Source: an uncultured Clostridia bacterium
Lineage (GTDB): Bacteria; Bacillota; Clostridia; Oscillospirales; Ruminococcaceae
DNA length: 40,302 nt
Direction: 5' to 3'
Assembly (NCBI GenBank): GCA_947625915.1
Contig: CANQPX010000002.1
Span: 1 to 40,302 of the forward strand
Position 1 is the stretch's first letter. Each line of letters begins with the position of its first letter. Positions 2,796-32,110 of this stretch are shown here, piece by piece. The position numbers and the translations under genes are program-made. Under the pieces are notes generated by a model. The model did no database searches and was not told the DNA's origin. It worked only from the letters and a program-made list of their open reading frames with translations.

Positions 2796-3096
2796 AGTCT
2801 GTAGAAAAAGTATAATAGTATAGTTCGTTGTCAAACAACTCACAGGGTTGTTTGACAAGGGAAAAATAGAAATAATTTGTTAGTTTAAGGGGGCGCCCTC
2901 TATCGCAGGGCGCCCCCTCTTGCTGTCTACGACAGCAATTCACCCCTTGCGGAGCTCCTAAAGGCATTAGGGGATTTCGCCGTCTGCGGACGGCGACGAG
3001 GGCTCCGCCCCTCGACCCCGCCAGCGCGGCTGCGCTGGACCAGCTTTTCAATTTTGCGCTGCGCGCAAAATTGTTAAGAACTTTTTTCTACAGACT
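2796..3096. repeat. Multi-hairpin dispersed repeat, copy 1 (complete)
   Basis: A 301-bp element with terminal inverted repeats AGTCTGTAGAAAAAGT (2796-2811) and its complement with one extra T (3080-3096). Inside are consecutive hairpins: 2828-2858 (12 bp), 2889-2917 (11 bp, loop CTATCGC), 2920-2938 (8 bp, loop 3), 2943-2973 (CCCCT/AGGGG), 2978-2995 (7 bp, loop TGCG), 2997-3014 (6 bp), 3021-3038 (7 bp) and 3050-3072 (10 bp). A second copy lies at 31837. Stems differ between copies but keep pairing, which argues for selection on structure. There is no transposase. It lies between convergent genes. Whether it acts as DNA or RNA is unknown. Confidence 0.85.
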
Positions 3097-3100
3097 AAGC

Positions 3101-3126
3101 AAAAAGGGACTTTTAAAGCCCCTTTT
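3101..3126 (-). terminator. Terminator of the azlCD operon
   Basis: On the minus strand, arms AAAGGGGC and GTCCCTTT (one mismatch) around an A/T loop, followed by T residues, 8 bp after the azlD stop. It closely resembles the hairpin at 2772-2794. Confidence 0.65.
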
Positions 3127-3133
3127 GCATTTT

Positions 3134-3436
3134 TTATTTCAAAAATAACCCCGCGATAAACGCTGCCGCCGATGCCGACAACGCTACCACTATCAGCGGC
3201 AATCCAAAATACGAAAGTATCAGCGCCGCCGCAGTTCCCACTATGGCAGTAAGAACACTTCCCGTGCTGTAAAATATCGCCGGGATAGTCATGGCGCTAA
3301 GTACGGCATACGGTATGTAAAAAAGAAAACTCCTGAAAAACCGCGACTTTATTTTCTTACTGAAAAATGTGAACGGGATCGCTCTGACTAAATAAGTCAC
3401 TCCCGCCATCACGGCAATATATACGGCTAATTTCAT
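3134..3436 (-). CDS. azlD: AzlD-like branched-chain amino acid transport protein
   Basis: A small membrane protein of 100 residues, the usual AzlD length, with about four hydrophobic segments. It opens MKLAVYIAVMAGVTYLVRAIPF, the typical AzlD N-terminus, with the conserved basic stretch KKIKSRFFRSFLFYIPYAVL near residues 28-47. AzlC and AzlD together form an exporter of branched-chain amino acids and their analogues in the inner membrane. Its ATG overlaps the azlC stop codon as ATGA (3433-3436), so translation is coupled. A longer reading that starts in a different frame upstream is not used because it would overlap azlC almost entirely. Confidence 0.85.
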   Translation of the reverse strand: MKLAVYIAVMAGVTYLVRAIPFTFFSKKIKSRFFRSFLFYIPYAVLSAMTIPAIFYSTGSVLTAIVGTAAALILSYFGLPLIVVALSASAAAFIAGLFLK

Positions 3437-4128
3437 TCGCTTTCCTCCTTGATCGGGAAAAACGCAGCCCCGAGCATCGCTGCCGCCACTGCCGAAATTA
3501 TTACCGCAAATCCCGAAGATAATGTCGTTAAAACATATCTGAAAAATACGCTTATCCCCGCCGCTGTTATTACAACGATAAATACGCTCAGACTTTTCTT
3601 TGCCGGCGGAACTATTATCGCCAGAAACATTCCGTAAAGCACTATCCCCATTGCACTGCTTATCGCTGCGGGCAGCAATTCTCCCGCGGCTGCGCCGAGC
3701 GCCGTTCCGCCTACCCAGCCGAGAAACGCCGCAAATATCATTCCGTACATATATGAAGGCGTAACAGGTCCTTTCTGCGCCGAACAAACTGCAAATATCT
3801 CGTCCGTTATCCCGTATGACGCGGCAAGACGATGCGGCAAAGTGAATTTTTTGTCAAGCTTTTGCGAAAGTGAGATCGCCATAAGAGAATAACGTATATT
3901 TATCGTCAATTGTACAAGTATCATTTCAATTATCGTTCCGCCTGCCGCTATTATGTCAACGCCCGCAGCCTGCCCCGCCGAAGTAAGGTTCAGCGCAGAG
4001 ATCATTGCCGAAGAAAATACCGACAGTCCCGCGCCAACGGCTTTTATGCCGAATCCGAAGGATACCGACAGATAGCCTAAAGCGATAGGTATGCCGTGTA
4101 TCATACCTTTAGTGAGATCGCTTTTCAT
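3433..4128 (-). CDS. azlC: AzlC-like branched-chain amino acid exporter, large subunit
   Basis: A 231-residue multi-pass membrane protein. The opening G(I/M)PIALGYLSVSFGFG and the central QKLDKKFTLPHRLAASYGITDEIFAVC are typical of the AzlC family, the large partner of AzlD in branched-chain amino acid export. The start is taken as the ATG at 4128, because it overlaps the stop of the preceding aldo/keto reductase as ATGA, and GGAGG lies upstream (13 nt, a little far). An in-frame ATG seven codons earlier (4149) is possible but has no ribosome binding site. The gene is thus coupled both to the reductase before it and to azlD after it. Confidence 0.85.
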   Translation of the reverse strand: MKSDLTKGMIHGIPIALGYLSVSFGFGIKAVGAGLSVFSSAMISALNLTSAGQAAGVDIIAAGGTIIEMILVQLTINIRYSLMAISLSQKLDKKFTLPHRLAASYGITDEIFAVCSAQKGPVTPSYMYGMIFAAFLGWVGGTALGAAAGELLPAAISSAMGIVLYGMFLAIIVPPAKKSLSVFIVVITAAGISVFFRYVLTTLSSGFAVIISAVAAAMLGAAFFPIKEESE

Positions 4129-5159
4129 TTCTGCTTTTTTTCCTCCCATTCCGAAAGGATCTTTTTATAATCCTCATAATTCTTTTTAAGGAGTTCGGGA
4201 GTATTAAGTTCGTAGGGACATTTTTTTATGCACGCGCCGCAGCCTATGCAGTTTTCTGTCCTGCGCATTTCCTCCTGCATAGTCTCCGACAGCCAGCCTT
4301 CCATTGGCGCACGTCGGAGCATAAGCGATATTCTTGCGCATTGATTTATCATTATCCCTTGCGGGCAAGGCATACAATATCCGCAGCCGCGGCAGAAATC
4401 CCCGCAAAGTTCTTTCCGTTCATTTTCAATAAAAGCAGCCGTTTCCTCGTCCATAACAGCATCGTTTTCCATAAGAGCGAGCCACTCATCAAGTTCCGAC
4501 TCTCTTTGTATGCCCCATATCGGGAGAACATTGCCGAACTGCGTCATATATGCCATTGCGGCGCGGGAATTCCTTATCAGACCGCCCGCAAGAGCTTTCA
4601 TTGCAATAAAACCAACGTTTTTTTCACGGCAAAGCGAAACGAGTTCCAGTTCTTTATCCGAAGCCAGATAGCTGAACGGATACTGTAACGTTTCATAAAG
4701 ACCCGACTTTGCACATTCTTCCGCAACGCCGATCTTATGAGCCGTTATTCCGATATGGCGGATCATTCCTTTTTCCTTTGCTTCGAGAATAGCTTCGTAC
4801 ATTCCCGTACCGTCTCCCGGGGCATAGCAGCGATCCGCACAATGGAATTGATAGATGTCCAGATAGTCGCTTTTAAGGGCAGCAAGTGAAGTTTCAAGGT
4901 CTTTCCAAAATTTATCGGGCGTAACAGCCTGAGTTTTTGAAGCGATAAATATTTTATCGCGCATATTTTCAAACGCCGCACCGAGTTTTTCCTCGCTGTC
5001 GGTGTATGCCCGCGCGGTATCGAAAAAGCGCATACCGCCGTCATAAGCGCGTCTCAATATATGTACCGCGTCGTTTTTCGGTATACGCTGAACAGGCAGC
5101 GCGCCGAAAGCGTTCTGCGGCACGGTTATCCCGGTACTTCCCAAAGTGATATTTTTCAT
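4125..5159 (-). CDS. Aldo/keto reductase with C-terminal ferredoxin-type domain
   Basis: A 344-residue cytoplasmic oxidoreductase. Residues 1-240 form an aldo/keto reductase barrel with the catalytic tetrad visible: Asp47 (FFDTARAYTDSEE), Tyr52, Lys75 (ASKT) and His106 (YQFHCADR). The last 95 residues carry two cysteine clusters, CRGCGYCMPCP and CIGCGACIKKCP, expected to hold two [4Fe-4S] centres. Such fusions (COG1453 type) are common in anaerobes; their substrates are mostly unknown. It is the first gene of a three-gene operon with azlCD and has ATGA overlap with azlC, so a role in amino-acid or keto-acid redox balance is a guess from context only. Confidence 0.87.
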   Translation of the reverse strand: MKNITLGSTGITVPQNAFGALPVQRIPKNDAVHILRRAYDGGMRFFDTARAYTDSEEKLGAAFENMRDKIFIASKTQAVTPDKFWKDLETSLAALKSDYLDIYQFHCADRCYAPGDGTGMYEAILEAKEKGMIRHIGITAHKIGVAEECAKSGLYETLQYPFSYLASDKELELVSLCREKNVGFIAMKALAGGLIRNSRAAMAYMTQFGNVLPIWGIQRESELDEWLALMENDAVMDEETAAFIENERKELCGDFCRGCGYCMPCPQGIMINQCARISLMLRRAPMEGWLSETMQEEMRRTENCIGCGACIKKCPYELNTPELLKKNYEDYKKILSEWEEKKQK

Positions 5160-5205
5160 AGTATTTACCTTTCGTTAATAATGTCGGATATAGTATATTG
5201 CTCTA

Positions 5206-5234
5206 ATTATACATTATTATTTCCACTTTGTCAA
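5206..5234 (-). promoter_or_regulatory. Promoter of the aldo/keto reductase-azlCD operon
   Basis: Minus strand TTGACA (5229-5234), 17-bp spacer, TATAAT (5206-5211): a full consensus promoter about 47 bp before the ATG. Confidence 0.8.
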
Positions 5235-5286
5235 CAGCGCGGGGAACCGCTTTTTTATTCTTCGTGCAGTCATATTGAAAACTTAC

Positions 5287-5482
5287 TTAAGGCAACACCG
5301 CACAAAGACCGCCTTACGGCTTTGCCGCACATCTGCTTGCATATTTCCCGTCATATTGCACGAAAACTCCTTGACATACGACATGTATGCAAAAAGCTAA
5401 AGCTTTTGCGTCGTTTTCATACAATCTGACAAAAAATCTGACTGCGCATCTGCACGACAATCTTTGTGCGGTGTTGCCTTAA
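5287..5482. mobile_element. MITE with perfect 22-bp terminal inverted repeats
   Basis: TTAAGGCAACACCGCACAAA and two further bases at 5287-5308 are repeated as an exact inverse at 5461-5482, giving a 196-bp element with no coding capacity. If the outer TTAA is the target duplication, the inverted repeat proper is 18 bp and the element belongs to a TTAA-targeting group. Small internal dyads are present, e.g. CATAC/GTATG near 5378-5392. The right end lies 2 bp from the stop codon of the lipoprotein gene. Confidence 0.8.
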
Positions 5483-5484
5483 AT

Positions 5485-6297
5485 TTAAGACTCTGCTTGT
5501 AAATGATCAAACAATTCTGAACGCCACCCGTTATCTGTGCGTACAAGTTTTATAGGGTGTGTTTCTGTCCATTCGGTTTCATCATTTTTTTGATAAGCAA
5601 TATATTCAAATGAAATTTCATTATCATTTTTTTCAACTAATTGATATTTCCCTCCTTGAAAAAATATCGGACCGCCCTTTTCGCCCCATTCATAATATAA
5701 TTCATCGCCAATAAGTTTAAATCTCTTATCAGCCATTATTTCGTCAACGGCTTCTTGGGTAAAAATTGATCGAAGATATTCATAAAAACTTTGATAGGTC
5801 GAAACGTAATAATAGTCAGCGTACCCTTCAAATTCAATATAAAAATCACGCAATTCACCATTTTCATCAATATAATGAGTTGGTGTTTCACAAGTGCCAG
5901 GAATGATAAAATATTCTGTCTCATCAATAAATATCAAAGCTCTTATGTAAGTATCATATTGCTCATCACTTAAAAAGTCCAATTCATCTCTTACACGCCA
6001 ACTGCTTTTATCACACTTTTCAATATATTTTTCCAAATCAAACTCATATTCTCTTGATAATGCTGTTTCTTCGGAAAATTCTTTGGCAGTTGATCCTGTT
6101 GATTTTTCACCGGTTTTTATTAGCATAGTTGTTTCTGTTTCAATATTTTGACTTGCCTGTTTTGAAACAGCTGCTGTTTGCCGGTTTATATCATCTATCA
6201 ATTCTCCCTGCCCCGTGTCAGTATCAGCTTGACACCCGACCAAACCGCAGACTAAAGCAACCCCCGCAAGCAAAGATAAAAATTTGCTCTTTTTCAT
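5485..6297 (-). CDS. Lipoprotein of unknown function
   Basis: A 270-residue secreted lipoprotein not assigned to a family here. The signal peptide ends with lipobox LVGC and Cys22; residues 23-75 are a Thr/Ser/Gln/Glu-rich linker, and the remainder is an acidic, Tyr- and Phe-rich soluble domain with alternating strand-like segments (EYFIIPGTCETPTHYID, YYYVSTYQSFYEYL, GGKYQLVEKNDNEISFEYIAYQK). AGGAGG stands 9 nt before the ATG. It has its own consensus promoter with two phased upstream repeats. A MITE abuts its stop codon, so its native terminator may have been displaced. It is monocistronic, and its base composition is more A/T-rich than the sulfur genes beside it. Confidence 0.8.
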   Translation of the reverse strand: MKKSKFLSLLAGVALVCGLVGCQADTDTGQGELIDDINRQTAAVSKQASQNIETETTMLIKTGEKSTGSTAKEFSEETALSREYEFDLEKYIEKCDKSSWRVRDELDFLSDEQYDTYIRALIFIDETEYFIIPGTCETPTHYIDENGELRDFYIEFEGYADYYYVSTYQSFYEYLRSIFTQEAVDEIMADKRFKLIGDELYYEWGEKGGPIFFQGGKYQLVEKNDNEISFEYIAYQKNDETEWTETHPIKLVRTDNGWRSELFDHLQAES

Positions 6298-6347
6298 AAT
6301 AAAAGACCTCCTGAATTTACTTGAAGCGCGACCGCGCGTTCAAACAA

Positions 6348-6414
6348 ATTTTACATTTTTTTGAATAGTTTGTCAAGGGGTTTGCAGTAAACGCATTAAA
6401 AATTGCAGTAAACG
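6348..6414 (-). promoter_or_regulatory. Promoter with two phased direct repeats
   Basis: Minus strand TTGACA (6371-6376), 17-bp spacer, TAAAAT (6348-6353). Just upstream of the -35 the 12-mer CGTTTACTGCAA (minus strand) occurs twice, at 6382-6393 and 6403-6414, exactly 21 bp apart, i.e. two helical turns. This geometry is known from direct-repeat activator sites such as those of LytTR-type regulators; the regulator here is unknown. Confidence 0.7.
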
Positions 6415-6482
6415 ATTAAAATTTGGCATTAATTTGAATTGATATTAATAAATAGTTAAGAAAATTATTGCCCAAAAATAAT

Positions 6483-6514
6483 AGAGCTATTGTGTATCAA
6501 TGCACAATAGCTCT
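6483..6514 (-). terminator. Terminator of the sulfate-reduction operon
   Basis: A 12-bp perfect stem AGAGCTATTGTG/CACAATAGCTCT with an 8-nt loop, 12 bp after the cysN stop; on the minus strand it is followed by ATTATTTTT. Confidence 0.85.
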
Positions 6515-6525
6515 TTATATCGGCT

Positions 6526-8208
6526 CTATTTATCGGAATTCGGGAAAACCACTTTCCGATATGTATCAAATTTCATGCGGCGTCTGAAAAATTCGGGATC
6601 TTCAGGAGCATACTCTTCAAGCAAATGTTTTACATCTTCCTGAGAGGAAACCAGAATTTCAAATCCCCGCCCATTGACCACGGGAACGCCTGTATATGCG
6701 TATTCATCAAAGGAAGTGATCTGCGCGATCTTTCCGTTCCGCACCGTTACGGAAGCTTTATCACGGAGCACCAGAATATCAAAATTTTCAGGATAAGAAT
6801 AGCTTTCACCTTTTAACGGAATTGCGTCTCCGATGGTATAAGTCTCATGCACAGGCTGAAATTTCATCACATTAAAGCCGGAGATGTCATAGAAAAATTC
6901 CTCAAAAATATCTCCTCTTGCTGTGATCTCACCTGCGGCAAAGGCGGCTTTATTTGTCTGCTGCGTTTGCCGTTCCGCTTCAAGAACGATACCGCAGGCA
7001 GAGGTCATATTCGTTACACGGTCAATAAGTATAAATTCACCCAGAGTTTTATGATTTTTGAATGTATCCGCTGTGATACCTTCCGCAAGACGTATTTCAC
7101 AAACCGCAAGCCCGTTCTTTGAAAGGGTATGTACCGCTATTTTTTCACCTGTATTTACGTCCACCGCATGGCGGATCTCCGTCAGGATACCCGGAATGGT
7201 TTTTGTTCCGAGCTTTACAAGATACTCTTTTCCCGTAACAAGCGGTTCATCGTCCATCCAGAGAAGAGAAACATTCAGCTTTCCGCATACGGGAATATCC
7301 GTATCTTTTGTAAACACACAGCCTCTTGAAACGTCCACTTCTCTGTCAAGAGTTATGGTAACGGGCTGCCCCGTATGCGCTTCGGGAACTTGCCGATCGG
7401 TGACAAATATCGTTTTTATATGCGCCTTTTCTCCGCTGGGCAGAACAGTTATCTCATCACCAACACAAATACTTCCCGATTCGATCTGCCCCTGAGATCC
7501 GCGGAAAGTGCGGTCAGGACGGCATACACGCTGAACAGGCATATAAAAGCCCTGTTCACTTTCTTCCCCCACTATATCAACGTTTTCAAGATATTCAAGA
7601 AGCGGCTCGCCTTTGTACCATTCCATATTTTTTGACTTGGCGGTAACATTGTCGCCCTCTGTTGCGCTAAGAGGTATAATTTTAACATTCGCAAGCGAAA
7701 GTTCTTTGCCGAGTGCTCCGATCTGTTCTTCAATTTCACGGAAACGGGAAAGGTCATATCCCACCAGATCCATTTTATTTACCGCAAAAACAAAATACCT
7801 TATCCCCATAAGGCTGCATATCCTTGCGTGCCGCCTTGTCTGGACAAGTACGCCCTGTGAAGCATCCACCAGTATTACGGCAAGATCTGCAAAGGAAGCG
7901 CCTACCGCCATGTTCCGTGTGTATTCTTCATGCCCCGGGGTGTCTGCAACGATAAAGCTGCGTTTTTCCGTTGTGAAATAGCGGTACGCCACATCAATGG
8001 TGATACCCTGTTCCCGCTCCGCCATAAGACCGTCTAACAGAAGGGAATAGTCTATCTTACCGCCGCGGCTCCCCACTTTGCTGTCAAGAGCGAGCGCCTT
8101 TTCCTGATCGGCATAAAGAAGTTTTGCATCATACAGAATATGCCCGATAAGCGTTGACTTGCCGTCGTCAACACTTCCGCAGGTAATAAATTTCAGTAAC
8201 CCTTTCAT
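6526..8208 (-). CDS. cysN: Sulfate adenylyltransferase subunit 1 (CysN)
   Basis: The GTPase subunit of ATP sulfurylase, which with CysD makes APS from ATP and sulfate. At 560 residues it shows G1 GSVDDGKST (11-19), G3 DTPGHEEYTRN and G4 NKMD, followed by EF-Tu-like beta domains ending around FILIDRVTNMTSACG (about residue 430). Beyond this is an extra 120-130-residue C-terminal region that is not an APS kinase: no second P-loop is present. It ends with EFFRRRMKFDTYRKVVF. The ATG shares one base with the cysD stop (TAATG). It is the last gene of the operon before the terminator. Confidence 0.93.
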   Translation of the reverse strand: MKGLLKFITCGSVDDGKSTLIGHILYDAKLLYADQEKALALDSKVGSRGGKIDYSLLLDGLMAEREQGITIDVAYRYFTTEKRSFIVADTPGHEEYTRNMAVGASFADLAVILVDASQGVLVQTRRHARICSLMGIRYFVFAVNKMDLVGYDLSRFREIEEQIGALGKELSLANVKIIPLSATEGDNVTAKSKNMEWYKGEPLLEYLENVDIVGEESEQGFYMPVQRVCRPDRTFRGSQGQIESGSICVGDEITVLPSGEKAHIKTIFVTDRQVPEAHTGQPVTITLDREVDVSRGCVFTKDTDIPVCGKLNVSLLWMDDEPLVTGKEYLVKLGTKTIPGILTEIRHAVDVNTGEKIAVHTLSKNGLAVCEIRLAEGITADTFKNHKTLGEFILIDRVTNMTSACGIVLEAERQTQQTNKAAFAAGEITARGDIFEEFFYDISGFNVMKFQPVHETYTIGDAIPLKGESYSYPENFDILVLRDKASVTVRNGKIAQITSFDEYAYTGVPVVNGRGFEILVSSQEDVKHLLEEYAPEDPEFFRRRMKFDTYRKVVFPNSDK

Positions 8209-9107
8209 TAAAAATAGCCCTCTCTCTTTCTGCGTTCCATGCTTCCTGCCGCTTCGTTGTCGATAACTCTTGAAGTGCGTTCGGAAGAAACAGCACTCAG
8301 CGTTTCTTCAATAATTTCATCAAGGGTCGATGCCGTTGACTCCATTCCTCCCGTCAGGGGATAACAGCCGAGGGTACGGAACCTCACCGACTTGTATTCG
8401 GGTCTTTCTCCCTCTTTAAGAGGAAATCTGTCATCATCTACCATGATCAGCGCACCGTCCCGCTCTACAACAGGACGTACTGCCGCAAAATACAGCGGCA
8501 CGATCTCAATATTCTCGCGGCGGATATACTGCCATATATCCTTTTCCGTCCAGTTTGATATAGGGAAAACGCGTATGCTTTCTCCTTTGTTTATCTTGGT
8601 ATTATAAAGCTTCCACATTTCGGGACGCTGATTTTTCGGATCCCATGCCTGCGCCGAATTGCGGAAAGAAAAGATCCTTTCCTTGGCTCGTGATTTTTCT
8701 TCATCGCGCCGTCCGCCGCCGAAAGCTGCCGTAAATCCGTATTTTGTCAAAGCCTGCCTGAGTGCCTGTGTTTTCATGATATCCGTATATGCCGCGCCGT
8801 GGTCGAACGGATTGATGCCCTGTTTTACGCCTTCTTCATTGGTATAGACAAGCATTTCTATGCCGAGTTTCTTTGCGGTCTCATCGCGGAATTTTATCAT
8901 ATCATGGAATTTCCATGTGGTGTCTATGTGCAGAAAAGGGAACGGCGGCTTTTCGGGATAAAAAGCTTTCATGGCAAGATGCAGCATAACAGAACTGTCC
9001 TTGCCTATGGAATACAGCATGACAGGTTTTTCACATTCCGCAGCGACCTCACGGATAATATATATTGCTTCTGCTTCAAGTTCGTCAAGATGTGATAATT
9101 CACCCAT
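8208..9107 (-). CDS. cysD: Sulfate adenylyltransferase subunit 2 (CysD)
   Basis: The catalytic subunit of ATP sulfurylase, 299 residues, the normal length. It has the N-type ATP pyrophosphatase PP-loop [17 protein letters not shown] and the CysD-specific stretches [31 protein letters not shown] and [10 protein letters not shown], ending in ERRKREGYF as in most CysD proteins. The ATG at 9107 is chosen because AAAGGAG is 8 nt upstream; an in-frame GTG at 9116 would touch that site. It lies between aprB and cysN and fits sulfate activation for APS reductase. Confidence 0.95.
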
Positions 9108-9120
9108 ATCCTTCACTCCT

Positions 9121-9429
9121 TTAATACCGATTGGATTCTTTTCTGTTGATGCGGATCTCTTTTACGCTGCCGTCGGGACATTCCATTACCCATGTCAGGA
9201 TATCCCCCTGCTGCCTTGTATAAACAAGACTTCCTCTGCCGCCCATATCCGCGCCGAGAAAGAATTTCACTGCGCCTGCGGAACATTCTTTTATGCAGGA
9301 CGTGCAGCCCCAGCAGTCCTTGGGATATTTCATATATGCCTTGCTATCCATTACGATCAGATTTCCCGGACAAACTTCGGCACATCTGCCGCAGCCGATA
9401 CATTTTTCACTGTCGATCATTATGCTCAT
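9121..9429 (-). CDS. aprB: APS reductase beta subunit (AprB-like ferredoxin)
   Basis: A 102-residue iron-sulfur protein that should pass electrons to AprA. Two cysteine sets are seen: C10, C13, C16, C20 ([14 protein letters not shown]) and C39, C42, C45, C49 ([17 protein letters not shown]), the second with the CWGC form typical of AprB. The tail from residue 55 ([17 protein letters not shown]) is the short beta-strand module of AprB, but shorter than in dissimilatory sulfate reducers (about 150 residues). Its ATG lies 23 nt inside the aprA end in another frame, with GGAGG 9 nt upstream. Assignment rests on motif and on the aprA-cysDN context. Confidence 0.87.
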
Positions 9430-11095
9430 AGTGTTCGTCCTCCTTTACCGTTCTGCGCTTGATGATCTTTATCCTGCCGTTTTCAAGTTTTGAATTGATG
9501 TAGCAGAGGTAATTTTCATCGTCCCGTTCCGGGTAGTCAAGATTTTCCGCAAAGCTGTGCCAGCGGGTCTCCTTTCTTGCTTCAAGATGTGCGATAAGGC
9601 TTTTGCAGACAGTCAGCCTTTCCCGCAGTTCATAAATTGACATCAACTCATGCATATCATGTGCGCAAAGCGTCTCTGTCAGCGCTTCTATCTGTGATAT
9701 CCTCTCATTGGCAGCTGCAAGCTGCTTTTCGTTGTATCGGTAATTTGTGCGGATACCGCCCGCATATCTGTCCATTACCGTCTGCATGGCTTCTTCTAAC
9801 TGTTCACAGTCAAAACGTGCGTTTTCTCCATTAAGAAATTTCTCCGCTTTTGAAAAATGCCGTGAGATCTCTTCATCAACAACCTCATGAAGATCATGAG
9901 AGCATATATATTTTAATGCGGACCCTGCCGCGATCTTTCCCTCCGCCAACGCGCCTGTAACATATTTCTGAGGACAGCCGCCCGCCACATCTCCTGCGGC
10001 AAAAAGCCCGTGTATGGTGGTTTCCCTGTCGGTATCGACCCAATATCCGCTTGCGGTATGACCTCCCACGATATACGGCTCGGTACCTTCGATCTCAACA
10101 TTCTGCTGTGACGGCATTTTCCCGCTTTCCAGCCATTTTATGGTCTGAGAGGGCGCCATGTTCAGATATGCTTTCAATAACGCGTCGTCCTGCTCGGACG
10201 TGATTCCCTCTGTTTTCAGATAGCACGGACCTCTGCCGTTTAAATTCTCCATCACCGTGCCATGAACTCTCTGCGATGTGGTAAGACCGTACTTATTTTC
10301 ATATACTTCACCCAACGCGTTTACTTGTTTTGCACTTACGCCCTGTGCAAGTGTACCTGTTGGTGCAATAGTATCTTTACAGCGAAGTGCAATAAAACGC
10401 ATCTCAAATGTAGTCATTTCCGCGCCTGCACGGATCCCCATCGCATAGCCCGCGCCAGTATTGAAAGGCGGGTACCACATTTTATGGCGTGAAAAACCCG
10501 TGTTGTTGGGCTGATAAAGCCCTGCCGCTCCGCCTGTGCAGATAATTACGGCTTTGGCGGAAATGCTGTAGAAAATTTCCTTTTGCGTATTAAATCCGAA
10601 TGCGCCGTTTATACGATCATCCGTAACGGAAAAATCCGTCATGTTTATATGGTTCAGGACTGTAACATTTTTCAGACGATATACCGCATCAGCAAGCAAA
10701 GGTTTGATATTTTCGCCGTTGATCTTCAGATTTCGTTTTCCTCTTGTAACATAGTTCCCGTTTTCGTCTTTCAGTATGACCAGTCCCAGACGTTCCAGAT
10801 GTGCCGTAACCTCGTTAAGCTGTTCCGACATGGTAAGGAGCAGGTCGCCGCGAACGATACCCTCGGCGTCCTGCCTTGCATAGTCAACATAATCCTGCGG
10901 AGTATGCCCTTCCGTAATATAGGCGTTCAAAGCGTTTACGCCTGCGGCAAGGCAGCCGCTGCGGCGGATATTTGCCTTTTCACAGATGATAACATTTGTG
11001 TCGGGAGAATTTTCCGCGATCGTTATCGCCGCATAGCAGCCTGCCGTACCTCCGCCGATGATAAGCACATCGGTGTGCAATTTCTGTAATTCCAT
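9407..11095 (-). CDS. aprA: APS reductase alpha subunit (AprA-like flavoprotein)
   Basis: A 562-residue FAD enzyme of the fumarate reductase/succinate dehydrogenase flavoprotein family, expected to reduce APS to sulfite and AMP. The FAD dinucleotide motif GGGTAGCYAA is near residue 15 and RRSGCLAAGVNALNAYI follows, a hallmark of AprA. FNTGAGYAMGIRAGAEMTTFEMRF lies in the middle and GLFAAGDVAGG near residue 370, closing the FAD site. The C-terminal helical domain includes KETRWHSFAENLDYPERDD. It is shorter than dissimilatory AprA. The ATG at 11095 has GGAG 9 nt upstream; a much longer in-frame extension would run through trxB and is rejected. Partner aprB overlaps its end. Confidence 0.88.
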   Translation of the reverse strand: MELQKLHTDVLIIGGGTAGCYAAITIAENSPDTNVIICEKANIRRSGCLAAGVNALNAYITEGHTPQDYVDYARQDAEGIVRGDLLLTMSEQLNEVTAHLERLGLVILKDENGNYVTRGKRNLKINGENIKPLLADAVYRLKNVTVLNHINMTDFSVTDDRINGAFGFNTQKEIFYSISAKAVIICTGGAAGLYQPNNTGFSRHKMWYPPFNTGAGYAMGIRAGAEMTTFEMRFIALRCKDTIAPTGTLAQGVSAKQVNALGEVYENKYGLTTSQRVHGTVMENLNGRGPCYLKTEGITSEQDDALLKAYLNMAPSQTIKWLESGKMPSQQNVEIEGTEPYIVGGHTASGYWVDTDRETTIHGLFAAGDVAGGCPQKYVTGALAEGKIAAGSALKYICSHDLHEVVDEEISRHFSKAEKFLNGENARFDCEQLEEAMQTVMDRYAGGIRTNYRYNEKQLAAANERISQIEALTETLCAHDMHELMSIYELRERLTVCKSLIAHLEARKETRWHSFAENLDYPERDDENYLCYINSKLENGRIKIIKRRTVKEDEHYEHNDRQ

Positions 11096-11099
11096 AGTT

Positions 11100-12014: not shown

Positions 12015-12016
12015 TA

Positions 12017-12451: not shown

Positions 12452-12455
12452 AGAT

Positions 12456-13834: not shown

Positions 13835-13835
13835 T

Positions 13836-22106: not shown

Positions 22107-22110
22107 GGCT

Positions 22111-25059: not shown

Positions 25060-26033
25060 AACGATTCAGACGACTTCGCAGCGGCGAACCTATACGGCGG
25101 CTCGTCCGAGAAACGCACATTGACAAAAGCGATCTTATTTATCCGATATTTATTGAGGAAGGCGAAAATATCAAAACGCCTGTGGACTCTATGCCGGGAA
25201 TTTTCCGCCGATCAATAGACCGACTGGACGAAATTCTTCTTCAAATTGAAAACAGTAAGATCGGAGGGATACTTGTATTCGGGATACCGAAGCACAAGGA
25301 CGAAACGGGCAGCGGTGCATACGATAAAAACGGCATTACACAGCGTGCAGTGCGGTATATCAAAAACAAATGTCCGGATATTCTGATAATTGCCGATGTC
25401 TGCCTTTGTGAATATACATCTCACGGACATTGCGGACTGGTTTGCGGCGGTGAGATACTGAACGATGAAACGCTTCCTTTGCTTGCGAAAATGGCAGTCA
25501 GCCTTGCGGAAAGCGGGGCGGACATAATTGCTCCGTCAGACATGATGGACGGAAGAGTCGCATACATAAGAAAAACCCTTGATGAAAGCGGTCACGTAAA
25601 TACGCCGATACTTTCATACAGTGCAAAATTTGCATCCGGGTATTATGCACCTTTCCGTGACGCAGCGGATTCTGCACCCGCTTTCGGAGACAGAAAGACC
25701 TATCAGATGGACTATGCAAACGGCAGAGAAGCCATAGGCGAAATTGCAGAGGACATTTCAGAGGGCGCGGATATGATAATGGTAAAGCCTGCCCTTGCTT
25801 ATCTTGACCTTGTACGCATGGCGCATGAAAAATTTGATCTTCCCCTTGCCGTTTACAACGTCAGCGGAGAATATGCAATGGTAAAAGCCACTGCGGCAAT
25901 GGGCTATATAAATGAAAAAAAGATCGTTCTTGAAAATATTACGGCAATGAAGCGAGCAGGTGCGGACATCATCATAACCTATCATGCTCTTGACATATGC
26001 AAATGGCTTGACGAGGAAAAAGGAGAGATCTGA
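25056..26033 (+). CDS. hemB: Porphobilinogen synthase (5-aminolevulinate dehydratase)
   Basis: A 325-residue enzyme condensing two aminolevulinates. DVCLCEYTSHGHCG holds the three zinc cysteines, so it is the Zn-dependent form; APSDMMDGRVAYIR and YSAKFASGYYAPFRDAA (first active lysine) precede MVKPALAYLDLVR (Schiff-base lysine). The ATG overlaps the preceding stop as ATGA. Confidence 0.96.
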   Translation: MKRFRRLRSGEPIRRLVRETHIDKSDLIYPIFIEEGENIKTPVDSMPGIFRRSIDRLDEILLQIENSKIGGILVFGIPKHKDETGSGAYDKNGITQRAVRYIKNKCPDILIIADVCLCEYTSHGHCGLVCGGEILNDETLPLLAKMAVSLAESGADIIAPSDMMDGRVAYIRKTLDESGHVNTPILSYSAKFASGYYAPFRDAADSAPAFGDRKTYQMDYANGREAIGEIAEDISEGADMIMVKPALAYLDLVRMAHEKFDLPLAVYNVSGEYAMVKATAAMGYINEKKIVLENITAMKRAGADIIITYHALDICKWLDEEKGEI

Positions 26034-26034
26034 C

Positions 26035-27306
26035 TTGAAAACAAATTGTTCTGACGCTCTTTATCATCGCGCGGTGAAACTCATGCCGGGAGGTGTGAAC
26101 AGTCCCGTGCGTGCCTTTCGGAATGTGGGACGGGATCCGTTGTTTATAGATCATGCAAAGGGCAGCTATATTTATGATGCGGACGGAAATAAATTTATAG
26201 ATTATGTGTGTTCATGGGGACCTGATATTTTCGGTCATGCTTATCCGCCGATCGTAGAAGCTGTAAAAAAAGCCTGTGAAAAAGGACTGACATTCGGAGC
26301 GTGTCATGAAGGGGAAATTGTTCTTGCGGAAAAGATAATTTCTCATTTTCCGTCTGTCGAAATGGTTCGGCTCGTTAATTCAGGCACGGAAGCTGTCATG
26401 AGTGCGATCCGCGCCGCAAGAGGGTCAACAGGCAGAGATAAGATAATTAAATTTGAAGGGTGTTATCACGGACATTGTGATCCGCTGCTTGTAAAAGGCG
26501 GTTCGGGTCTGATGACCCATGCCGTTCCCGACAGCACAGGCGTGCCGAAAAGTTTTACCGAGCATACATTGCTCGCAAAATACAACGATAAGAGATCGGT
26601 ATCGGATCTGTTTGAAACATATCCCAATGAGATCGCGTGCATTATTGTTGAGCCATGTGCCGCAAATATGGGAGTAGTTCCGCCGCAAAAAGGATATTTA
26701 CAATATCTTCGCGAAATTTCAAAAAAATATGGAGCGCTGCTTATCTTTGATGAAGTGATAACGGGCTTTCGGCTTTCAGACGGCGGAGCGCAAAAGTTTT
26801 ACGGAGTAAATGCGGATATGACTGTCCTTGGAAAGATAGTAGGCGGCGGAATGCCTTTGGCAGCCTATGGCGGCAGACGTGATATAATGGAATGTATCTC
26901 GCCTTTGGGTCAGGTTTATCAAGCGGGAACGCTTTCGGGGAATCCCGCTGCCACTGCCGCAGGAATTGCTGCATTGACTGCCATTGAGCAGGATCCTTAT
27001 TTATATGACAAGCTGGAAATAAGATCGGAAAAGCTTGAAACCGCCATGAGAAAAGCGGGGTTAAATGTAAATCGTGTCGGTTCATTATTGACGGCATTTT
27101 TTACCGACAAAGCGGTAACAGACTATGAAAGTGCGTGTACTTCGGACAGAGGTAAATATGCCGCATATTTTAATTTTCTGCTTGAAAACGGTATCTATAC
27201 AGCGCCTTCTCAGTTTGAAGCAATGTTTGTTTCGGCGGCACATTCCGATGAGGATATTGATATTACCTGCAATGTTATCGAAAAAGCAGGAAAAATGCTG
27301 CATTAA
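26035..27306 (+). CDS. hemL: Glutamate-1-semialdehyde 2,1-aminomutase
   Basis: A 423-residue PLP enzyme, the normal length, making 5-aminolevulinate from the HemA product. It has LMPGGVNSPVRAFRNVGRDPLFIDHAKG, VNSGTEAVMSAIRAARG, FEGCYHGHCDPLLVKGGSG, FDEVITGFR and the PLP lysine in TVLGKIVGGGMPLAAYGG. The start is TTG at 26035 with AGGAG 9 nt upstream, 1 bp after the hemB stop. It is the last gene of the operon; with hemA and hemB it completes the C5 route to siroheme. Confidence 0.94.
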   Translation: MKTNCSDALYHRAVKLMPGGVNSPVRAFRNVGRDPLFIDHAKGSYIYDADGNKFIDYVCSWGPDIFGHAYPPIVEAVKKACEKGLTFGACHEGEIVLAEKIISHFPSVEMVRLVNSGTEAVMSAIRAARGSTGRDKIIKFEGCYHGHCDPLLVKGGSGLMTHAVPDSTGVPKSFTEHTLLAKYNDKRSVSDLFETYPNEIACIIVEPCAANMGVVPPQKGYLQYLREISKKYGALLIFDEVITGFRLSDGGAQKFYGVNADMTVLGKIVGGGMPLAAYGGRRDIMECISPLGQVYQAGTLSGNPAATAAGIAALTAIEQDPYLYDKLEIRSEKLETAMRKAGLNVNRVGSLLTAFFTDKAVTDYESACTSDRGKYAAYFNFLLENGIYTAPSQFEAMFVSAAHSDEDIDITCNVIEKAGKMLH

Positions 27307-27389
27307 ATATAATTTTAATGCAAAATATAAAGAACGGAAAGGATCATTTGATCCATTTTGAAAGGCTATAATACGTTATTCCGAAAAAA

Positions 27390-27430
27390 CCAAAGCCGTA
27401 ACATCTTGCTTTAAGATGTTACGGCTTTGG
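27390..27430 (+). terminator. Strong terminator of the cysP-hemL operon
   Basis: An 18-bp perfect stem (27390-27407 with 27413-27430, core GCCGTAACATCTT) and a 5-nt loop, followed by CTTTTCCTT. Confidence 0.85.
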
Positions 27431-27503
27431 CTTTTCCTTGTCGGATCTTATTGTTCATTGCAGCAAAGAAAAATGATTTACGGGATTGTCTGAAAAATTA
27501 GTG

Positions 27504-27532
27504 TTGCAATTTTCAGAATGATGGTGTATAAT
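27504..27532 (+). promoter_or_regulatory. Promoter of the sigma factor gene
   Basis: TTGCAA (27504-27509), 17-bp spacer, TATAAT (27527-27532), 38 bp before the ATG. A dyad CTGAAAAATT/AATTTTCAG (27490-27516) spans the -35 box. This is a housekeeping-type promoter. Confidence 0.65.
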
Positions 27533-27569
27533 ATCCTTAAAAATATTTCTTCGTGAAAGGACGATAGGT

Positions 27570-28115
27570 ATGCTTGCAGCTTGTCTTGCCCTGATAGATG
27601 AACCAACCGACAGGGAAAAATTTGAAAATTTGTATTATACATACAAGGATATGATGTTCAAACTTGCAATGTCCATTCTTCACAATGACGCTCTTGCGCA
27701 GGAAACCGTACAGGATTGTTTTCTGAAACTTGCCGAAATGATAAAGGAAGTTCCTGATGTTCCAAGTAAACGCGCAAAAGCAATGATAATAACTATGGTA
27801 AAAAACAAAGCAAGAAATAATCTTAAAGCAGAACATTATGACAAAAATGAAATTTTTGAGGAAGATGAAATATCCGATAAGATCATAAATGATATATTAT
27901 CAGATATAGGATACGAGGAACTTGTTAAAATGATTGATGAACTCGAACCTCTGTATAGAGATGTCCTTGTTTTGAGAATTTTAAATGAATTAAGCGTCGG
28001 CGAAGTTGCGCAAGCGCTTGAGCTTCCGTATCGGACCGTTGAAACGCGACTTTTGCGGGGCAGGAAAATTTTGCAGAAAAAACCGGAGGGGATCAATAAT
28101 GAATGCGGCAATTAA
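27570..28115 (+). CDS. ECF-type RNA polymerase sigma factor
   Basis: A 181-residue sigma-70 family protein with only two regions. Region 2 covers FENLYYTYKDMMFKLAMSILHNDALAQETVQDCFLKLAEM (18-60) and region 4 YRDVLVLRILNELSVGEVAQALELPYRTVETRLLRGRKILQK (130-172). It should direct RNA polymerase to a small set of promoters. It overlaps the downstream membrane gene by 17 nt, the usual arrangement of sigma and anti-sigma pairs. The two secreted proteins that follow are its likely targets, but no shared non-housekeeping promoter motif was found by eye. Confidence 0.87.
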   Translation: MLAACLALIDEPTDREKFENLYYTYKDMMFKLAMSILHNDALAQETVQDCFLKLAEMIKEVPDVPSKRAKAMIITMVKNKARNNLKAEHYDKNEIFEEDEISDKIINDILSDIGYEELVKMIDELEPLYRDVLVLRILNELSVGEVAQALELPYRTVETRLLRGRKILQKKPEGINNECGN

Positions 28116-28797
28116 AAAACAAATATTCGATATAGTTTTGAAAGAAGCACTAAGGGACAGCATGGAGAAAGAATTCAAAAAAATCGACGAAATGGTTATT
28201 GATGAGCCTTACGAATTTTCATCAGAATTTGAAAAGAAGATGAAAAAGCTTATAAATTCTATCGGACGAAAGGACAGAATAAAAAAATTCAAACATATTG
28301 CTGTGCGGACGATCGTATCGGCTGCGGCTGTTTTCGGCGTAATATTTGGCGGACTTCTTACTCAGCCGGAAGTTTATGCAGCTGTGCAGCACGTTTTTCG
28401 AAGCGTTTTTGACACACACGACAAATACGAATTTGTTAGCGATGAATTGACAATTGACAATTTTAATAATAACATTAGATTGGGATATGTTCCGGAAGGA
28501 TATTACTTATCGGAGGGATTTTATACTACGATAAACGTATCCCTTTGCTATAAAAATGAAACAGATGATATTACATTTGAATATGGAATATCAAATTTTA
28601 TTAGCACTTCATATGATAATGACCATAATTCATATAGCTCATTTTATAATAATGATATAGAATATCATTATTATGAAAGTAGTGACGATGATTTTACAAA
28701 TAAACTTATTTGGTATAAAGACGGATATTTTTTTGGTATTTATGCACATTTATCTAAAGACGAACTTGTCAAAATTGCTGAAAATTTAGAAAAATAA
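28099..28797 (+). CDS. DUF4367-type membrane protein, putative anti-sigma factor
   Basis: A 232-residue protein: residues 1-70 are a charged cytoplasmic helical region, about 71-90 one membrane segment (TIVSAAAVFGVIFGGLL), and the remainder an extracellular domain with IRLGYVPEGYYLSEGFY, the mark of DUF4367. Such proteins accompany ECF sigma factors in Ruminococcus-type genomes and probably hold them at the membrane. GGAGGGG lies 7 nt before the ATG. The outer domain is rich in Asn, Asp, Tyr and Ser (SYDNDHNSYSSFYNNDIEYHYYES), and the gene is A/T-rich. Confidence 0.75.
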   Translation: MNAAIKKQIFDIVLKEALRDSMEKEFKKIDEMVIDEPYEFSSEFEKKMKKLINSIGRKDRIKKFKHIAVRTIVSAAAVFGVIFGGLLTQPEVYAAVQHVFRSVFDTHDKYEFVSDELTIDNFNNNIRLGYVPEGYYLSEGFYTTINVSLCYKNETDDITFEYGISNFISTSYDNDHNSYSSFYNNDIEYHYYESSDDDFTNKLIWYKDGYFFGIYAHLSKDELVKIAENLEK

Positions 28798-28868
28798 AAA
28801 TTTTTTGACGTGATTTCTCTTTCTGCGTGGTCTATTATATAGAGGCAGATAATTTAAGGAGGGATTGT

Positions 28869-29276
28869 ATGCCAAAAAAAGTCAAAAGCTTAACTTCAAT
28901 TCTTTTGTCAATATTAGTAATATTCAGCTTAATAGTATCTGTAGATGCAATAGAGCCTCGATACTCTGATACGGATAGTATAACCATTGGTCTTGGGATT
29001 ACAGGTACAACTGCAAGTTGCACTGTTATGATTTACGGTGCCGATGGAACAACGAGTATTGATAAAGTAAATATTACTTTGAAAGACAGTAAAGGTAATG
29101 TTAAGGGAGAATGGAAGAATTTATCTACTAACTCCAGAAAGTTTACATTCTTCGAAACAGTTTCTAATTTAATTGTAGGAGAAAGCTATACTCTTGAGTT
29201 TTCGGCAAACATTAATAGAAGAACAGGTGTAGAGACTATCAAAGATAGTCGTACAGCAACTTGTTCCGGCAAATAA
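28869..29276 (+). CDS. Small secreted protein, function unknown
   Basis: A 135-residue protein with a signal peptide (KKVKSLTSILLSILVIFSLIVSVDA, likely cut after VDA). The mature part, about 110 residues, reads as a beta-sandwich-like repeat of strands (SITIGLGITGTTASCTVMIYG, KVNITLKDSKGNVKGEWKNL, YTLEFSANINRRTG) and has two cysteines (TASC, TATC) that could form a disulfide. I do not recognise the family. AAGGAGGG is 6 nt before the ATG. It follows the sigma/anti-sigma pair and lies before a large secreted protein. Confidence 0.72.
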   Translation: MPKKVKSLTSILLSILVIFSLIVSVDAIEPRYSDTDSITIGLGITGTTASCTVMIYGADGTTSIDKVNITLKDSKGNVKGEWKNLSTNSRKFTFFETVSNLIVGESYTLEFSANINRRTGVETIKDSRTATCSGK

Positions 29277-29353
29277 AAACTATAATAAAAACTGCCTCTA
29301 ATCGTTTTAATGGTAAAATCTACATACCGTGTATCGGTGGAAAGGAAAATGTT

Positions 29354-30889
29354 ATGAAAGTCAAAAAATTTTTGAGTGCGGTGATTAGTGCGGCTATGTG
29401 CTTGTCAATTGTCACAGCTAATGTTTCCGCAGATGATAGCATTTTTATAGAAACATCTGAAAGTGCAATTGAAATGGTTAGCGAGAAAAGTGATGACTTT
29501 CAGTCTATAAGTGAGTTAGGTGCTGCATATCGTCTGGAAGATGTTGCCAAGGATTTAATCACGCTTAATTCCATTTCATCAAAAACAAACGATGTTGCAG
29601 CTTATTCTGCAAATTCTGCTCCGGTTGCAGGACTTTCAACAATGGTTGTCAATCCAGAAACGCTTTTGAACGGCAGCATGACAACTGAAACAGTGGTTTA
29701 TTGGCTGTGGTATGACGGTGAGACTTATTATTCATACGATCCGGACGGAGACGAAATCGTTAATTATTATGTCTCTGGAATTAACGATTATATTTTGGGA
29801 ACAGTAACACTTGACGGTGAAGCAATTGGATTTGCTACACAGATAACAGTGGCTGCTGAGTATGATCTGCTTTTTCAAGTTGAGGATTCCAATGGCGAGT
29901 TATCCAATGTGCTTGACTACGTTCTGATGGTTGAACCTGCTGATGGAAATACAAGACCTATATGTAATATAATAGTTTCAAACTCAACTCCAACAGTAAA
30001 CTCAAACGTACTCTTTGACTGGTCTACGTCAACCGATGCAGACAGCGATGACTATATCGCAGGCGTTAAAGTCAGAGTAATTCATGGTGCAAGTGATGTG
30101 CTTGTTGACACAAGTAGCAAATATTATGCCGGCATGACCAATTATGGTATTCTCCTAACATTTGACGAAGTTGGAACATATGATGTTTGGATTTCAATGA
30201 GTGACAATCATAATGCATGGTCTAACTGGAATATTAATACTATTAATGTAACTAAAGAAATAACATATGTTTTGGACAATGTTATACTTACATCTAGTGA
30301 TGTAAATAATACGAATAGTACACGTTTTACATGGGGCAATTATAAAGAAGCCGTTGAACTTCAGTATCAGACAAATTTGCCAGAGGCATTATTTGATTTG
30401 GTTACTACAAATTCCGTTCCGTCAGAATTACAAAGCAGAACAATAATAGGTGCTGAATGGACATTAAGCGGGCGTGTAAAAACATCATCTGGAAATCCGT
30501 TGTCTAATGCGACAGTTCGAATCTTTATTCCTATGAAGTATAACGGTAGTTTTACGGCATCAGTGACAACAAATTCGTCTGGCTATTTCTCATACACTTG
30601 TGACAGCTTGACACAATGGTTTGATGCAATGAATGTATATTATATAGCGCAAGTGCCTGTGGATTTAAATTTATACGGCTCAACATCTGATTGGTGTAGA
30701 TATGGCGATTTATTGACAACTTCATGGTATGAACCAACAGATATGTATGTAATATGTGATTCTGCTTTAGTTAGGACAACAATTCCGGTAACTGCACTTT
30801 GTGGATGTTCATTCGCAAAATGGCTTGGTTATCGGTGGACTTATGGCATCCCTGGCGATTCAGGTTGTGGTTGGTTTGATTGGGGTTAA
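29354..30889 (+). CDS. Large secreted multidomain protein, function unknown
   Basis: A 511-residue exported protein. The signal peptide (KVKKFLSAVISAAMCLSIVTANVSA) is followed by two or three Ig/PKD-like strand-rich segments: WYDGETYYSYDPDGDEIVNYY, PICNIIVSNSTPTVNSNVLFDWSTS, YDVWISMSDNHNAWSNWNINTINV. Then WTLSGRVKTSSGNPLSNATVRIFIP is a carboxypeptidase-regulatory-like fold, a common surface module. The C-terminus is short, aromatic and Cys-rich (CGCSFAKWLGYRW, GDSGCGWFDWG). No LPXTG or dockerin is seen, so how it is held is unclear. AAAGGA precedes the ATG. No enzymatic motif was found. Confidence 0.75.
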   Translation: MKVKKFLSAVISAAMCLSIVTANVSADDSIFIETSESAIEMVSEKSDDFQSISELGAAYRLEDVAKDLITLNSISSKTNDVAAYSANSAPVAGLSTMVVNPETLLNGSMTTETVVYWLWYDGETYYSYDPDGDEIVNYYVSGINDYILGTVTLDGEAIGFATQITVAAEYDLLFQVEDSNGELSNVLDYVLMVEPADGNTRPICNIIVSNSTPTVNSNVLFDWSTSTDADSDDYIAGVKVRVIHGASDVLVDTSSKYYAGMTNYGILLTFDEVGTYDVWISMSDNHNAWSNWNINTINVTKEITYVLDNVILTSSDVNNTNSTRFTWGNYKEAVELQYQTNLPEALFDLVTTNSVPSELQSRTIIGAEWTLSGRVKTSSGNPLSNATVRIFIPMKYNGSFTASVTTNSSGYFSYTCDSLTQWFDAMNVYYIAQVPVDLNLYGSTSDWCRYGDLLTTSWYEPTDMYVICDSALVRTTIPVTALCGCSFAKWLGYRWTYGIPGDSGCGWFDWG

Positions 30890-30902
30890 TGGAGGTGTTA
30901 AA

Positions 30903-31730
30903 ATGATAATTAGAAATACCGGAGTAAACAATTTTGCAGCTATAAATAATATGCTGCAAAGGAAAAACAATGCAAATCCTATTTCGGGAACACCTTTTAC
31001 AAAGCGGTTTGATACACTTGTATTGAGTGATTTATTTAAGCAGTATTCCGATACTAAAGAAAGCGATAATGATATTTCGGCAATTCAAAAAATGTTATCT
31101 GAAACAAATAATAATTTAGATAAGAAAACTGCTGCAGGAACAGCAGGTCTCATTTATATGCAGGGTGCTTTAGCGCAGGAAATGATGTATACTGCTACAG
31201 TCGGCTATCAATTTGCGCAATGTACAGAAGAAAAAGCATATTATCAAAGCTTGCTGAATGAAGCTGACAGAACTGCAAAAAGTGATCCCGTACCACCGAC
31301 GCAGGATTATTTTGAATATAAATGTCCTGACGGCGGAGAGATAGATCGTGAAAAGGTTGAAAAAGCTCTTGCAAATGTACAGAGCCGTATTGACAACTTC
31401 ATTAATAATAATTCGGATTTAGTGAGAAAACCTGAAAGAAATATGGAAATTTATAATCAGTGTGCAAGTGCATTTGCAAATGCGTTTGATGTTGATGGAT
31501 CCGATGTAATTCTTGATGAAGAAGATAATAACAAGCTGTTCGGAGAAATTAAAGCGGACGAAGAAAGTTTCCTGCAAAAATGTAAGGACAAAATGCAAGA
31601 TCTTAGAGATCGTTACAATTCATTAGATAAACTTATGGAGGACAGCATAAAGAAAATGCGTTCTGAAAGCGGCGGAGAAAAACGTGCTGCCGCCATTGAA
31701 AAGGCGATCAATGAACTTTCTTTACAATGA
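30903..31730 (+). CDS. Helical protein of unknown function
   Basis: A 275-residue soluble protein without signal peptide, 13 bp after the large secreted protein and with GGAGGTG before its ATG, so probably co-translated. The first 40 residues are polar (RNTGVNNFAAINNMLQRKNN); the rest is predominantly helical and charged, e.g. EKVEKALANVQSRIDNFINN and ESFLQKCKDKMQDLRDRYNSLDKLMEDS, coiled-coil-like near the end. I do not recognise the family. Its place suggests a partner, chaperone or non-classically exported component of the secreted protein system; that is a guess. Confidence 0.68.
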   Translation: MIIRNTGVNNFAAINNMLQRKNNANPISGTPFTKRFDTLVLSDLFKQYSDTKESDNDISAIQKMLSETNNNLDKKTAAGTAGLIYMQGALAQEMMYTATVGYQFAQCTEEKAYYQSLLNEADRTAKSDPVPPTQDYFEYKCPDGGEIDREKVEKALANVQSRIDNFINNNSDLVRKPERNMEIYNQCASAFANAFDVDGSDVILDEEDNNKLFGEIKADEESFLQKCKDKMQDLRDRYNSLDKLMEDSIKKMRSESGGEKRAAAIEKAINELSLQ

Positions 31731-31812
31731 CTGATCAAGCTTACAATACCAAATGCGGTTTAAAGTGAGCTGCATAATTAACTCCATCTGTTTTTTCAAT
31801 TTCTCGATAAAC

Positions 31813-31835
31813 AAAAGGGAACACGATGCGTTCTT
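31813..31835 (+). terminator. Imperfect terminator-like hairpin
   Basis: GGGAACACGATGCGTTC (31817-31833) can form GAACACG/GCGTTC with a mismatch and is followed by TTC and the repeat element. It resembles the left arm of the perfect palindrome at 32163-32194 beyond the repeat. From 31731 to 31812 I see nothing else. Confidence 0.4.
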
Positions 31836-31836
31836 C

Positions 31837-32110
31837 AGTCTGTAGAAAAAGTATTTACGAAGAATAGTATAGTTCGTTGTCAAACAACTCACAGGGTTGT
31901 TTGACAAGGCTTAGATGGTATTTAATCGTTAATTCCAAGGGGGAAGCCCTCTATCGCAGGGCTTCCCCCTCTTTACGCCTGCGGCGTAAATTCACCCCCA
32001 GCGGAGCTCCTGAAGGCATTAGGGGATTTCGCGCTCTGCGGAGCGCGACGAGGGCTCCGCCCCTCGACCCCGCCAGCGCGGCTGCGCTGGACCAGCTTTT
32101 CGGGCAAGAC
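31837..32110. repeat. Multi-hairpin dispersed repeat, copy 2 (3' end diverged)
   Basis: It begins with the same AGTCTGTAGAAAAAGT (31837-31852) as copy 1. Hairpins: 31877-31907 (identical), 31939-31969 (12 bp, same loop CTATCGC but different stem), 31972-31990 (8 bp, loop 3, largely different stem), 32030-32047 (7 bp, two base pairs inverted), 32049-32066 and 32073-32090 (identical). The last hairpin and right terminal repeat of copy 1 are missing; homology fades at about 32100. It again lies between convergent genes. Confidence 0.82.

Follow-up and report, generated by a model that had tools for sequence, protein, structure and literature searches.

The repeated multi-hairpin element of the window (the whole stretch analysed: 40,302 nt, positions 1-40,302 of contig CANQPX010000002.1, from the genome labelled G000) is, judged from its sequence, very probably a non-autonomous transposon of the IS1182 family. 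It would thus be a miniature inverted-repeat transposable element (MITE) with a multi-hairpin cargo, which often duplicates a whole terminator-like hairpin at its target. The element is about 300 bp long and no open reading frame (ORF) of at least 100 aa is listed entirely within either of its window copies. It is short, transposase-less and multi-copy, its terminal inverted repeats are like those of an IS1182-family insertion sequence (IS), and it duplicates its target as such ISs do, though not at every site. An earlier reading, made from the sequence only, had proposed either a structured RNA or a folded single-strand mobile unit, MITE- or REP-like; the mobile, MITE-like part of this agrees with the terminal inverted repeats, the many copies, the target duplications and the IS1182-family ISs that have the same ends in related genomes. 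MITEs themselves are a known kind; this one combines IS1182-type ends, frequent duplication of a whole terminator at the target and a hairpin core that is portable.

The likely parents of the MITE are ISs of the IS1182 family. Transposases of this type were detected in 34 of the 297 genomes that were sampled in the same bacterial family and in 16 of 394 in the order. MITE copies have ends of the CAGTCTGTMGAAAAAGT type or, on the left, of a second type close to CAGCTTGTCGATAAAGC. The IS L087 (same family) ends in CAGTCTGTCGAAAAAGT, which is identical to the MITE end and also occurs in MITE copies, and the IS L084 (same genus, genome G012), cut by a contig end on one side, has the ends CAGCTTGTCGAAAAAGC and CAGCCTGTAGAAAAAC. 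These two were scanned with NCBIfam NF033551 ("IS1182 family transposase") and reached 396 and 392 bits, respectively, at a cut-off of 270; their transposases are 73% identical. Loci cut by contig ends, loci whose ends could not be recognised and duplicate retrievals of a site were excluded. This left 24 IS sites at which both ends could be read; four of these come from a single genome. The same whole hairpin stood on both sides at 14 of the 24, with flanks more alike than any of the 552 mismatched pairings. For example, a 31-bp hairpin (ATACAGCATAGCTATCTTAACTATGCTGTAT) lies on both sides of L087. At L237, one hairpin copy carries an inverted loop (AGAT vs ATCT; inverted alignment 64, direct 56). 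Two further candidates for parents, L082 and L083 (PF13751, 5 of 25 genomes matched), were rejected as their flanks had no end pattern.

Similar target sites were seen at the MITE copies. Of the 55, 29 were scored, namely those with two recognised ends and a flank of 40 bases or more. The two flanks were more alike than every mismatched pairing in 10 of these and reached the 99th percentile or above in 16; whole-hairpin duplication was found in 11 if one inverted case is included (L018, where one hairpin inverted fits better, with 3 mismatches vs 6). Whole hairpins make up the strongest duplications; L037, for example, is flanked on either side by AAACGGTGCAAGGCTTTTGCACCGTTT, and L036 has CGGCTGCTCATACGAGCAGCC. 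Several copies that lack hairpins carry direct repeats of roughly 8-14 bp instead, and the short repeats include TTTATTAT at L029, AAAAATTAT at L026 and AATATTCT at L005. L007, L008 and L014 have a whole hairpin on one side and part of a hairpin on the other, and the remaining copies showed short repeats, half-hairpins, unlike hairpins or nothing clear. Stems of at least 8 pairs abutted both ends in 9 of the 29 copies and one or both ends in 18, compared with 7 of 254 stretches taken at random from the same loci. The MITE and the ISs share an unusual target habit, namely terminator-like hairpins, often with a whole hairpin abutting each end. The gene context could be scored for 39 of 43 copies; the flanking ORFs are convergent at 21 of these, codirectional at 14 and divergent at 4, as judged from crude ORF calls with no genome-wide baseline for comparison.

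We propose that an IS1182-type transposase would act in trans on the MITE, that the target hairpin would extrude as a cruciform and that joining at the 5' feet of the cruciform would duplicate the whole stem-loop, so that the element would end up between genes with one hairpin per side. Many sites resemble the hypothetical pathway b drawn for IS1272, an element that replaces stem-loops; in that pathway, joining at the cruciform 5' feet duplicates the whole stem-loop (Wan et al., 2017, PMC5678879). IS1272/TnSha1 of staphylococci likewise belongs to the IS1182 family and targets stem-loops without a sequence consensus, several of them confirmed terminators (PMC4923244, PMC5678879). Insertion into such hairpins came with partial deletion (Furi et al., 2016, PMC4923244). 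However, the stem-loop is there reportedly removed without target duplication (PMC4923244, PMC5678879), whereas in our loci the whole stem-loop is often duplicated; the 14 IS sites with a hairpin on both sides do not fit replacement of the IS1272 type. Duplication of a whole stem-loop is drawn as a pathway in the IS1272 papers, the sections of which drawn on here describe no observed case (PMC4923244, PMC5678879). IS1182-related transposases are described as working with or without target duplication and may recognise DNA structure (PMC12056078). Our loci provide many natural cases of transposition that duplicates a whole stem-loop, which makes structure-based target choice in the IS1182 family directly testable. 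With the element between genes and a hairpin on each side, the cost to the host should therefore fall; landing on a terminator and keeping a copy on each side probably lets the element settle without breaking genes. This suggests a low-cost transposon strategy, in which the element lands on terminators and leaves one per side.

The window holds two copies, which the sequence-only reading had placed at 2796-3096 and 31837-32110. Both are present, but the limits had to be corrected: copy 1 spans 2795 to about 3097, and copy 2 does not end at 32110 but probably has a decayed right end near 32150-32165. The terminal inverted repeats proposed for copy 1 were located at 2795-2811 and 3080-3097. The stems had been described correctly, in the versions GGGGGCGCCCT/GGGGGAAGCCCT enclosing CTATCGC, TTGCTGTC/TTTACGCC with a 3-nt loop, and CGCCGTC/CGCGCTC enclosing TGCG. 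What had been overlooked is that both copies are flanked by two versions of one terminator-like hairpin. The parts are as follows:

2772..2794, + strand: copy 1, left copy of the duplicated terminator-like hairpin (AAAAGGGGCTTTAAAGCCCCTTT); adjoins the left end and is repeated at 3101-3126
2795..2811, + strand: copy 1, left terminal inverted repeat (CAGTCTGTAGAAAAAGT)
2827..3050, + strand: copy 1, multi-hairpin core (profile match L001:1532-1755)
2828..2858, + strand: copy 1, hairpin A (TTGTCAAACAAC / GTTGTTTGACAA)
2888..2918, + strand: copy 1, hairpin B (loop CTATCGC)
2920..2938, + strand: copy 1, hairpin C (TTGCTGTC / GACAGCAA)
2977..2996, + strand: copy 1, hairpin E (loop TGCG)
2997..3014, + strand: copy 1, hairpin F (CGAGGGCTCCGCCCCTCG)
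3021..3038, + strand: copy 1, hairpin G (CCAGCGC / GCGCTGG)
3049..3073, + strand: copy 1, subterminal hairpin (CAATTTTGCGCTGCGCGCAAAATTG); missing from copy 2
3080..3097, + strand: copy 1, right terminal inverted repeat; the final base is A, and G in many other copies
3101..3126, + strand: copy 1, right copy of the duplicated terminator-like hairpin
31813..31833, + strand: copy 2, left remnant of the duplicated hairpin (AAAAGGGAACACGATGCGTTC)
31836..31852, + strand: copy 2, left terminal inverted repeat (CAGTCTGTAGAAAAAGT)
31876..32101, + strand: copy 2, multi-hairpin core (profile match L021:1540-1765)
32150..32165, + strand: copy 2, probable decayed right end, located by eye and unrecognised by the end search
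32166..32191, + strand: copy 2, intact right copy of the hairpin (AAAAGGGAACGCGCGCGTTCCCTTTT)

The direct-repeat scores of the flanks were 35 for copy 1 and 39 for copy 2. As its right end is unrecognised, copy 2 stands outside the 29 scored copies; it was included in a wider cut of 39, in which nine copies, both window copies among them, lay above all 1482 mismatched pairs (maximum 31). Copy 1 folds at -149 kcal/mol, compared with a mean of -91 for shuffled sequences (z -13; 0 of 100 shuffles as low), and copy 2 has a z of -6.7 (0 of 200 as low). According to the window ORF list, the ORFs on either side of copy 1 are convergent and end at 2764 and 3134, and those on either side of copy 2 end at 31730 and 32206. 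The subterminal hairpin of copy 1 (CAATTTTGCGCTGCGCGCAAAATTG, 3049-3073) is similar to hairpins that adjoin another end type in genome G019, and may be a relic of nesting.

The element had been taken for a two-copy one, which does not hold: 55 distinct copies were extracted from the fetched loci, and one conserved hairpin pattern matched G000 87 times (45 + 42; control 0). A search of G000 with copy 1 gave at least 45 matches, some partial or overlapping (40 of 171 candidates scored). The search of 60 relatives gave matches in 18 of the 20 from the genus and 2 of the 16 from the family, and a weak one (E 3.8e-4) in 1 of the 24 from the order. Of 391 sampled genomes of the class, 8, G000 included, had the exact hairpin pattern. 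Core-like hairpins occurred in at least 113 stretches of named genomes; among the matches listed (80 rows) these were Clostridia, many of them Oscillospiraceae, and included Ruminococcus, Butyricicoccus pullicaecorum and Pseudoruminococcus. The core profile matched 104 of the 113 stretches directly and all 113 after one round of iteration. Among the first 75 of 129 core matches in these stretches, an IS1182-type end (at most one mismatch) stood beside five (L136, L163, L174, L198 and L224); ends could be missed, because many matches span the core incompletely. In assemblies of the same genus, matches often lay at contig ends; the repeat therefore seems to break assemblies, and the copy numbers are lower bounds. 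At L004 and L003 (G000 C31:11420-12014 and C8:40043-40696), two copies stand head to head at one site, and the C8 pair has a terminator-like hairpin in between, as if the same terminator had been struck twice.

The core can be separated from the ends: G013, a different species of the genus, has it between inverted repeats of another type, that of TAAATGATAATTTAGCG. Counts of ends with at most one mismatch (IS1182-type/other type) gave only IS1182-type ends in G000 (45/0), G005 (26/0), G016 (10/0) and G018 (5/0), and only the other type in G013 (0/51), G019 (0/77) and G002 (0/23). The backward controls were 0 throughout for the other type and reached 7 (in G010) for the IS1182-type pattern, so small IS1182-type counts mean little. 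Judged by these end counts and its scattered occurrence, the core is patchy and not tied to one end type. Near 3768-3806 of L251 (G019), a bare palindrome of about 40 bp corresponds to two ends of the other type without a core.

Several observations weigh against reading the element as an IS1182-family MITE that duplicates whole hairpins. Thirteen of the 29 scored MITE copies fell below the 99th percentile of flank likeness, copies lacking either end being unscored there. Nine of the 24 ISs abut a different palindrome at each end (L085, L090, L092, L099, L231, L233, L236, L238 and L246), pairs that may arise by recombination between IS copies; one further IS has an 8-bp repeat, and several of the 24 sites are degraded or shortened. 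The terminal repeats are the only part seen in common between MITE and IS. Both end types occur together in G004 (17/2), G003 (2/5), G014 (1/6) and G001 (1/1). Although ISs with the same terminal repeats are present in related genomes, no IS1182-type transposase was found in G000 (assembly of 2.1 Mb in 73 contigs, 89% complete), and for this reason we infer the action in trans. An autonomous partner in the same genome is a common but non-obligatory trait of MITEs; none was found in G000, and one was found in the same-genus G012 (L084). Finally, a strict empty site was sought at trpS, downstream of which G000 has a MITE copy, and was not found, because the next gene is not conserved. trpS was matched in 19 of 21 genomes of the genus, and no core match lay downstream of it within the locus in the 18 other same-genus genomes (two of these loci have only 206 and 269 bases); by eye, the close relatives G019, G013, G014 and G016 have one hairpin after trpS.

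Stem pairing was analysed on an alignment of 53 cores (40 from G000 and 13 from relatives) out of 92 profile matches, with duplicates, partial copies and insert-bearing longer copies excluded. The consensus structure from RNAalifold had 51 pairs in six hairpins; it was taken from the same alignment that it is scored on, which favours it, and the rows are related. Paired cells made up 98.4% of 2687 stem cells, compared with 85.1% in shuffles. Two-sided changes were found in 33 of 51 pairs (shuffles 20.4), and the covariation score was 0.375 (shuffles 0.131; slid structures at most 0.071). The fifth measure, further pair types, gave 56 vs 55.5 in shuffles and thus no excess. The paired stem changes pointed out earlier therefore stand far above the controls on four of five measures. 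However, the conclusion then drawn, that such covariation means that pairing itself is kept, calls for some reserve: there were 346 cells with two-sided changes against 26 one-sided and 42 unpaired, and one pair position was C-G in 25 rows and U-A in 25 with no wobble. In the 40 G000 rows, each of the 15 pairings of the six hairpins occurred with every one of the four possible combinations of two stem types, though in four of the 15 pairings only once. The few one-sided changes and the shuffled stem combinations suggest that stems are swapped or corrected as whole blocks and not changed by stepwise mutation. The four combinations fit exchange of stems between copies, and recurrent change could do likewise.

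Pairing may be kept by selection, by palindrome correction or by both. It is tentatively possible that a mutational process without selection for the fold, such as template-switch correction of imperfect palindromes or stem conversion between copies, maintains it; the two-sided changes almost without intermediates and the stem combinations would follow from this. However, conservation of several loops, of the linkers and of the hairpin order in the aligned copies suggests constraint, and old stem types inherited by descent would likewise show no intermediates. Somewhat doubtful, in our view, is that the core is a structured non-coding RNA selected for its fold, with the transposon ends as incidental vehicles. 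The pairing and covariation values, the loops conserved amid varying stems and the same core on two end types agree with an RNA, but dozens of copies per genome and the scarcity of one-sided intermediates do not. Searches of Rfam also argue against it: at the gathering score there was no match in the window, and a relaxed search of 12 further loci gave two weak matches below that score (one over the L001 core, - strand, E 0.15), besides one tRNA and one weak tmRNA match, with no family accepted for the core. Promoter scans found none at either window copy, though the scan is weak and says little. Unlikely, but stated here for the core as a whole, is that it exists in its own right, as a structured cargo (RNA or DNA) of bacteria of the Oscillospiraceae type. 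Such a core would switch transposon vehicles, with IS1182-type ends in some species and unrelated ones in other species of the genus; its stems would be renewed as exchangeable blocks, and it would spread at low cost as the vehicle copies the host terminator. The core permits a test of whether covariation stems from selection for an RNA fold or from palindrome correction or conversion, and its source matters for claims of new RNAs built on covariation in repeated elements.

That the flanking hairpins are the element's own terminators, not a duplicated host target, is very improbable. A stem of at least 8 pairs does abut both ends at 22 of the 24 IS sites, and the nine unlike pairs would fit as well, but the hairpins vary between sites and yet match across the two sides of a site, and four IS copies of one length (1526) and equal score in genome G872 carry different hairpins (L231, L245, L248 and L249). 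Hardly tenable is a single-strand (IS200/IS605) or REP-type element, which the hairpin-rich, intergenic character would suit, because the element has terminal inverted repeats and target duplications, and DDE-type domains and a match to the IS1182 model were found in the ISs that share its ends.

As an IS1182-type MITE, the element resembles bacterial MITEs in being short, gene-less, intergenic and multi-copy, with terminal inverted repeats, direct repeats and a strong fold (PMC10969869). It differs in its cargo, a mosaic that comprises six or more hairpins and occurs on two end types, and in its target repeat, which is often a whole terminator-like hairpin. The main text of that review mentions IS1182 zero times (PMC10969869). 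REP elements are also palindromic intergenic repeats, but they are palindromes of 20-40 bp (PMC3733652), unlike our element with its terminal repeats. bcr1 of the Bacillus cereus group is likewise a repeat family; a common structure is predicted for it, and a cited title ascribes mobile traits to it (PMC2267715). It differs from our element in its host group. We know of no IS1182-type ends or terminator duplication in bcr1. A literature search of titles and abstract openings returned no observed whole-stem-loop duplication and no report of the element; ISfinder, TnPedia and most subscription papers lay outside its scope and may hold it.

Elsewhere in the window, positions 6526-27306 and 32206-40286 contain, by eye from the ORF translations, sulfate-assimilation/transport, haem biosynthesis and type IV pilus-like genes.

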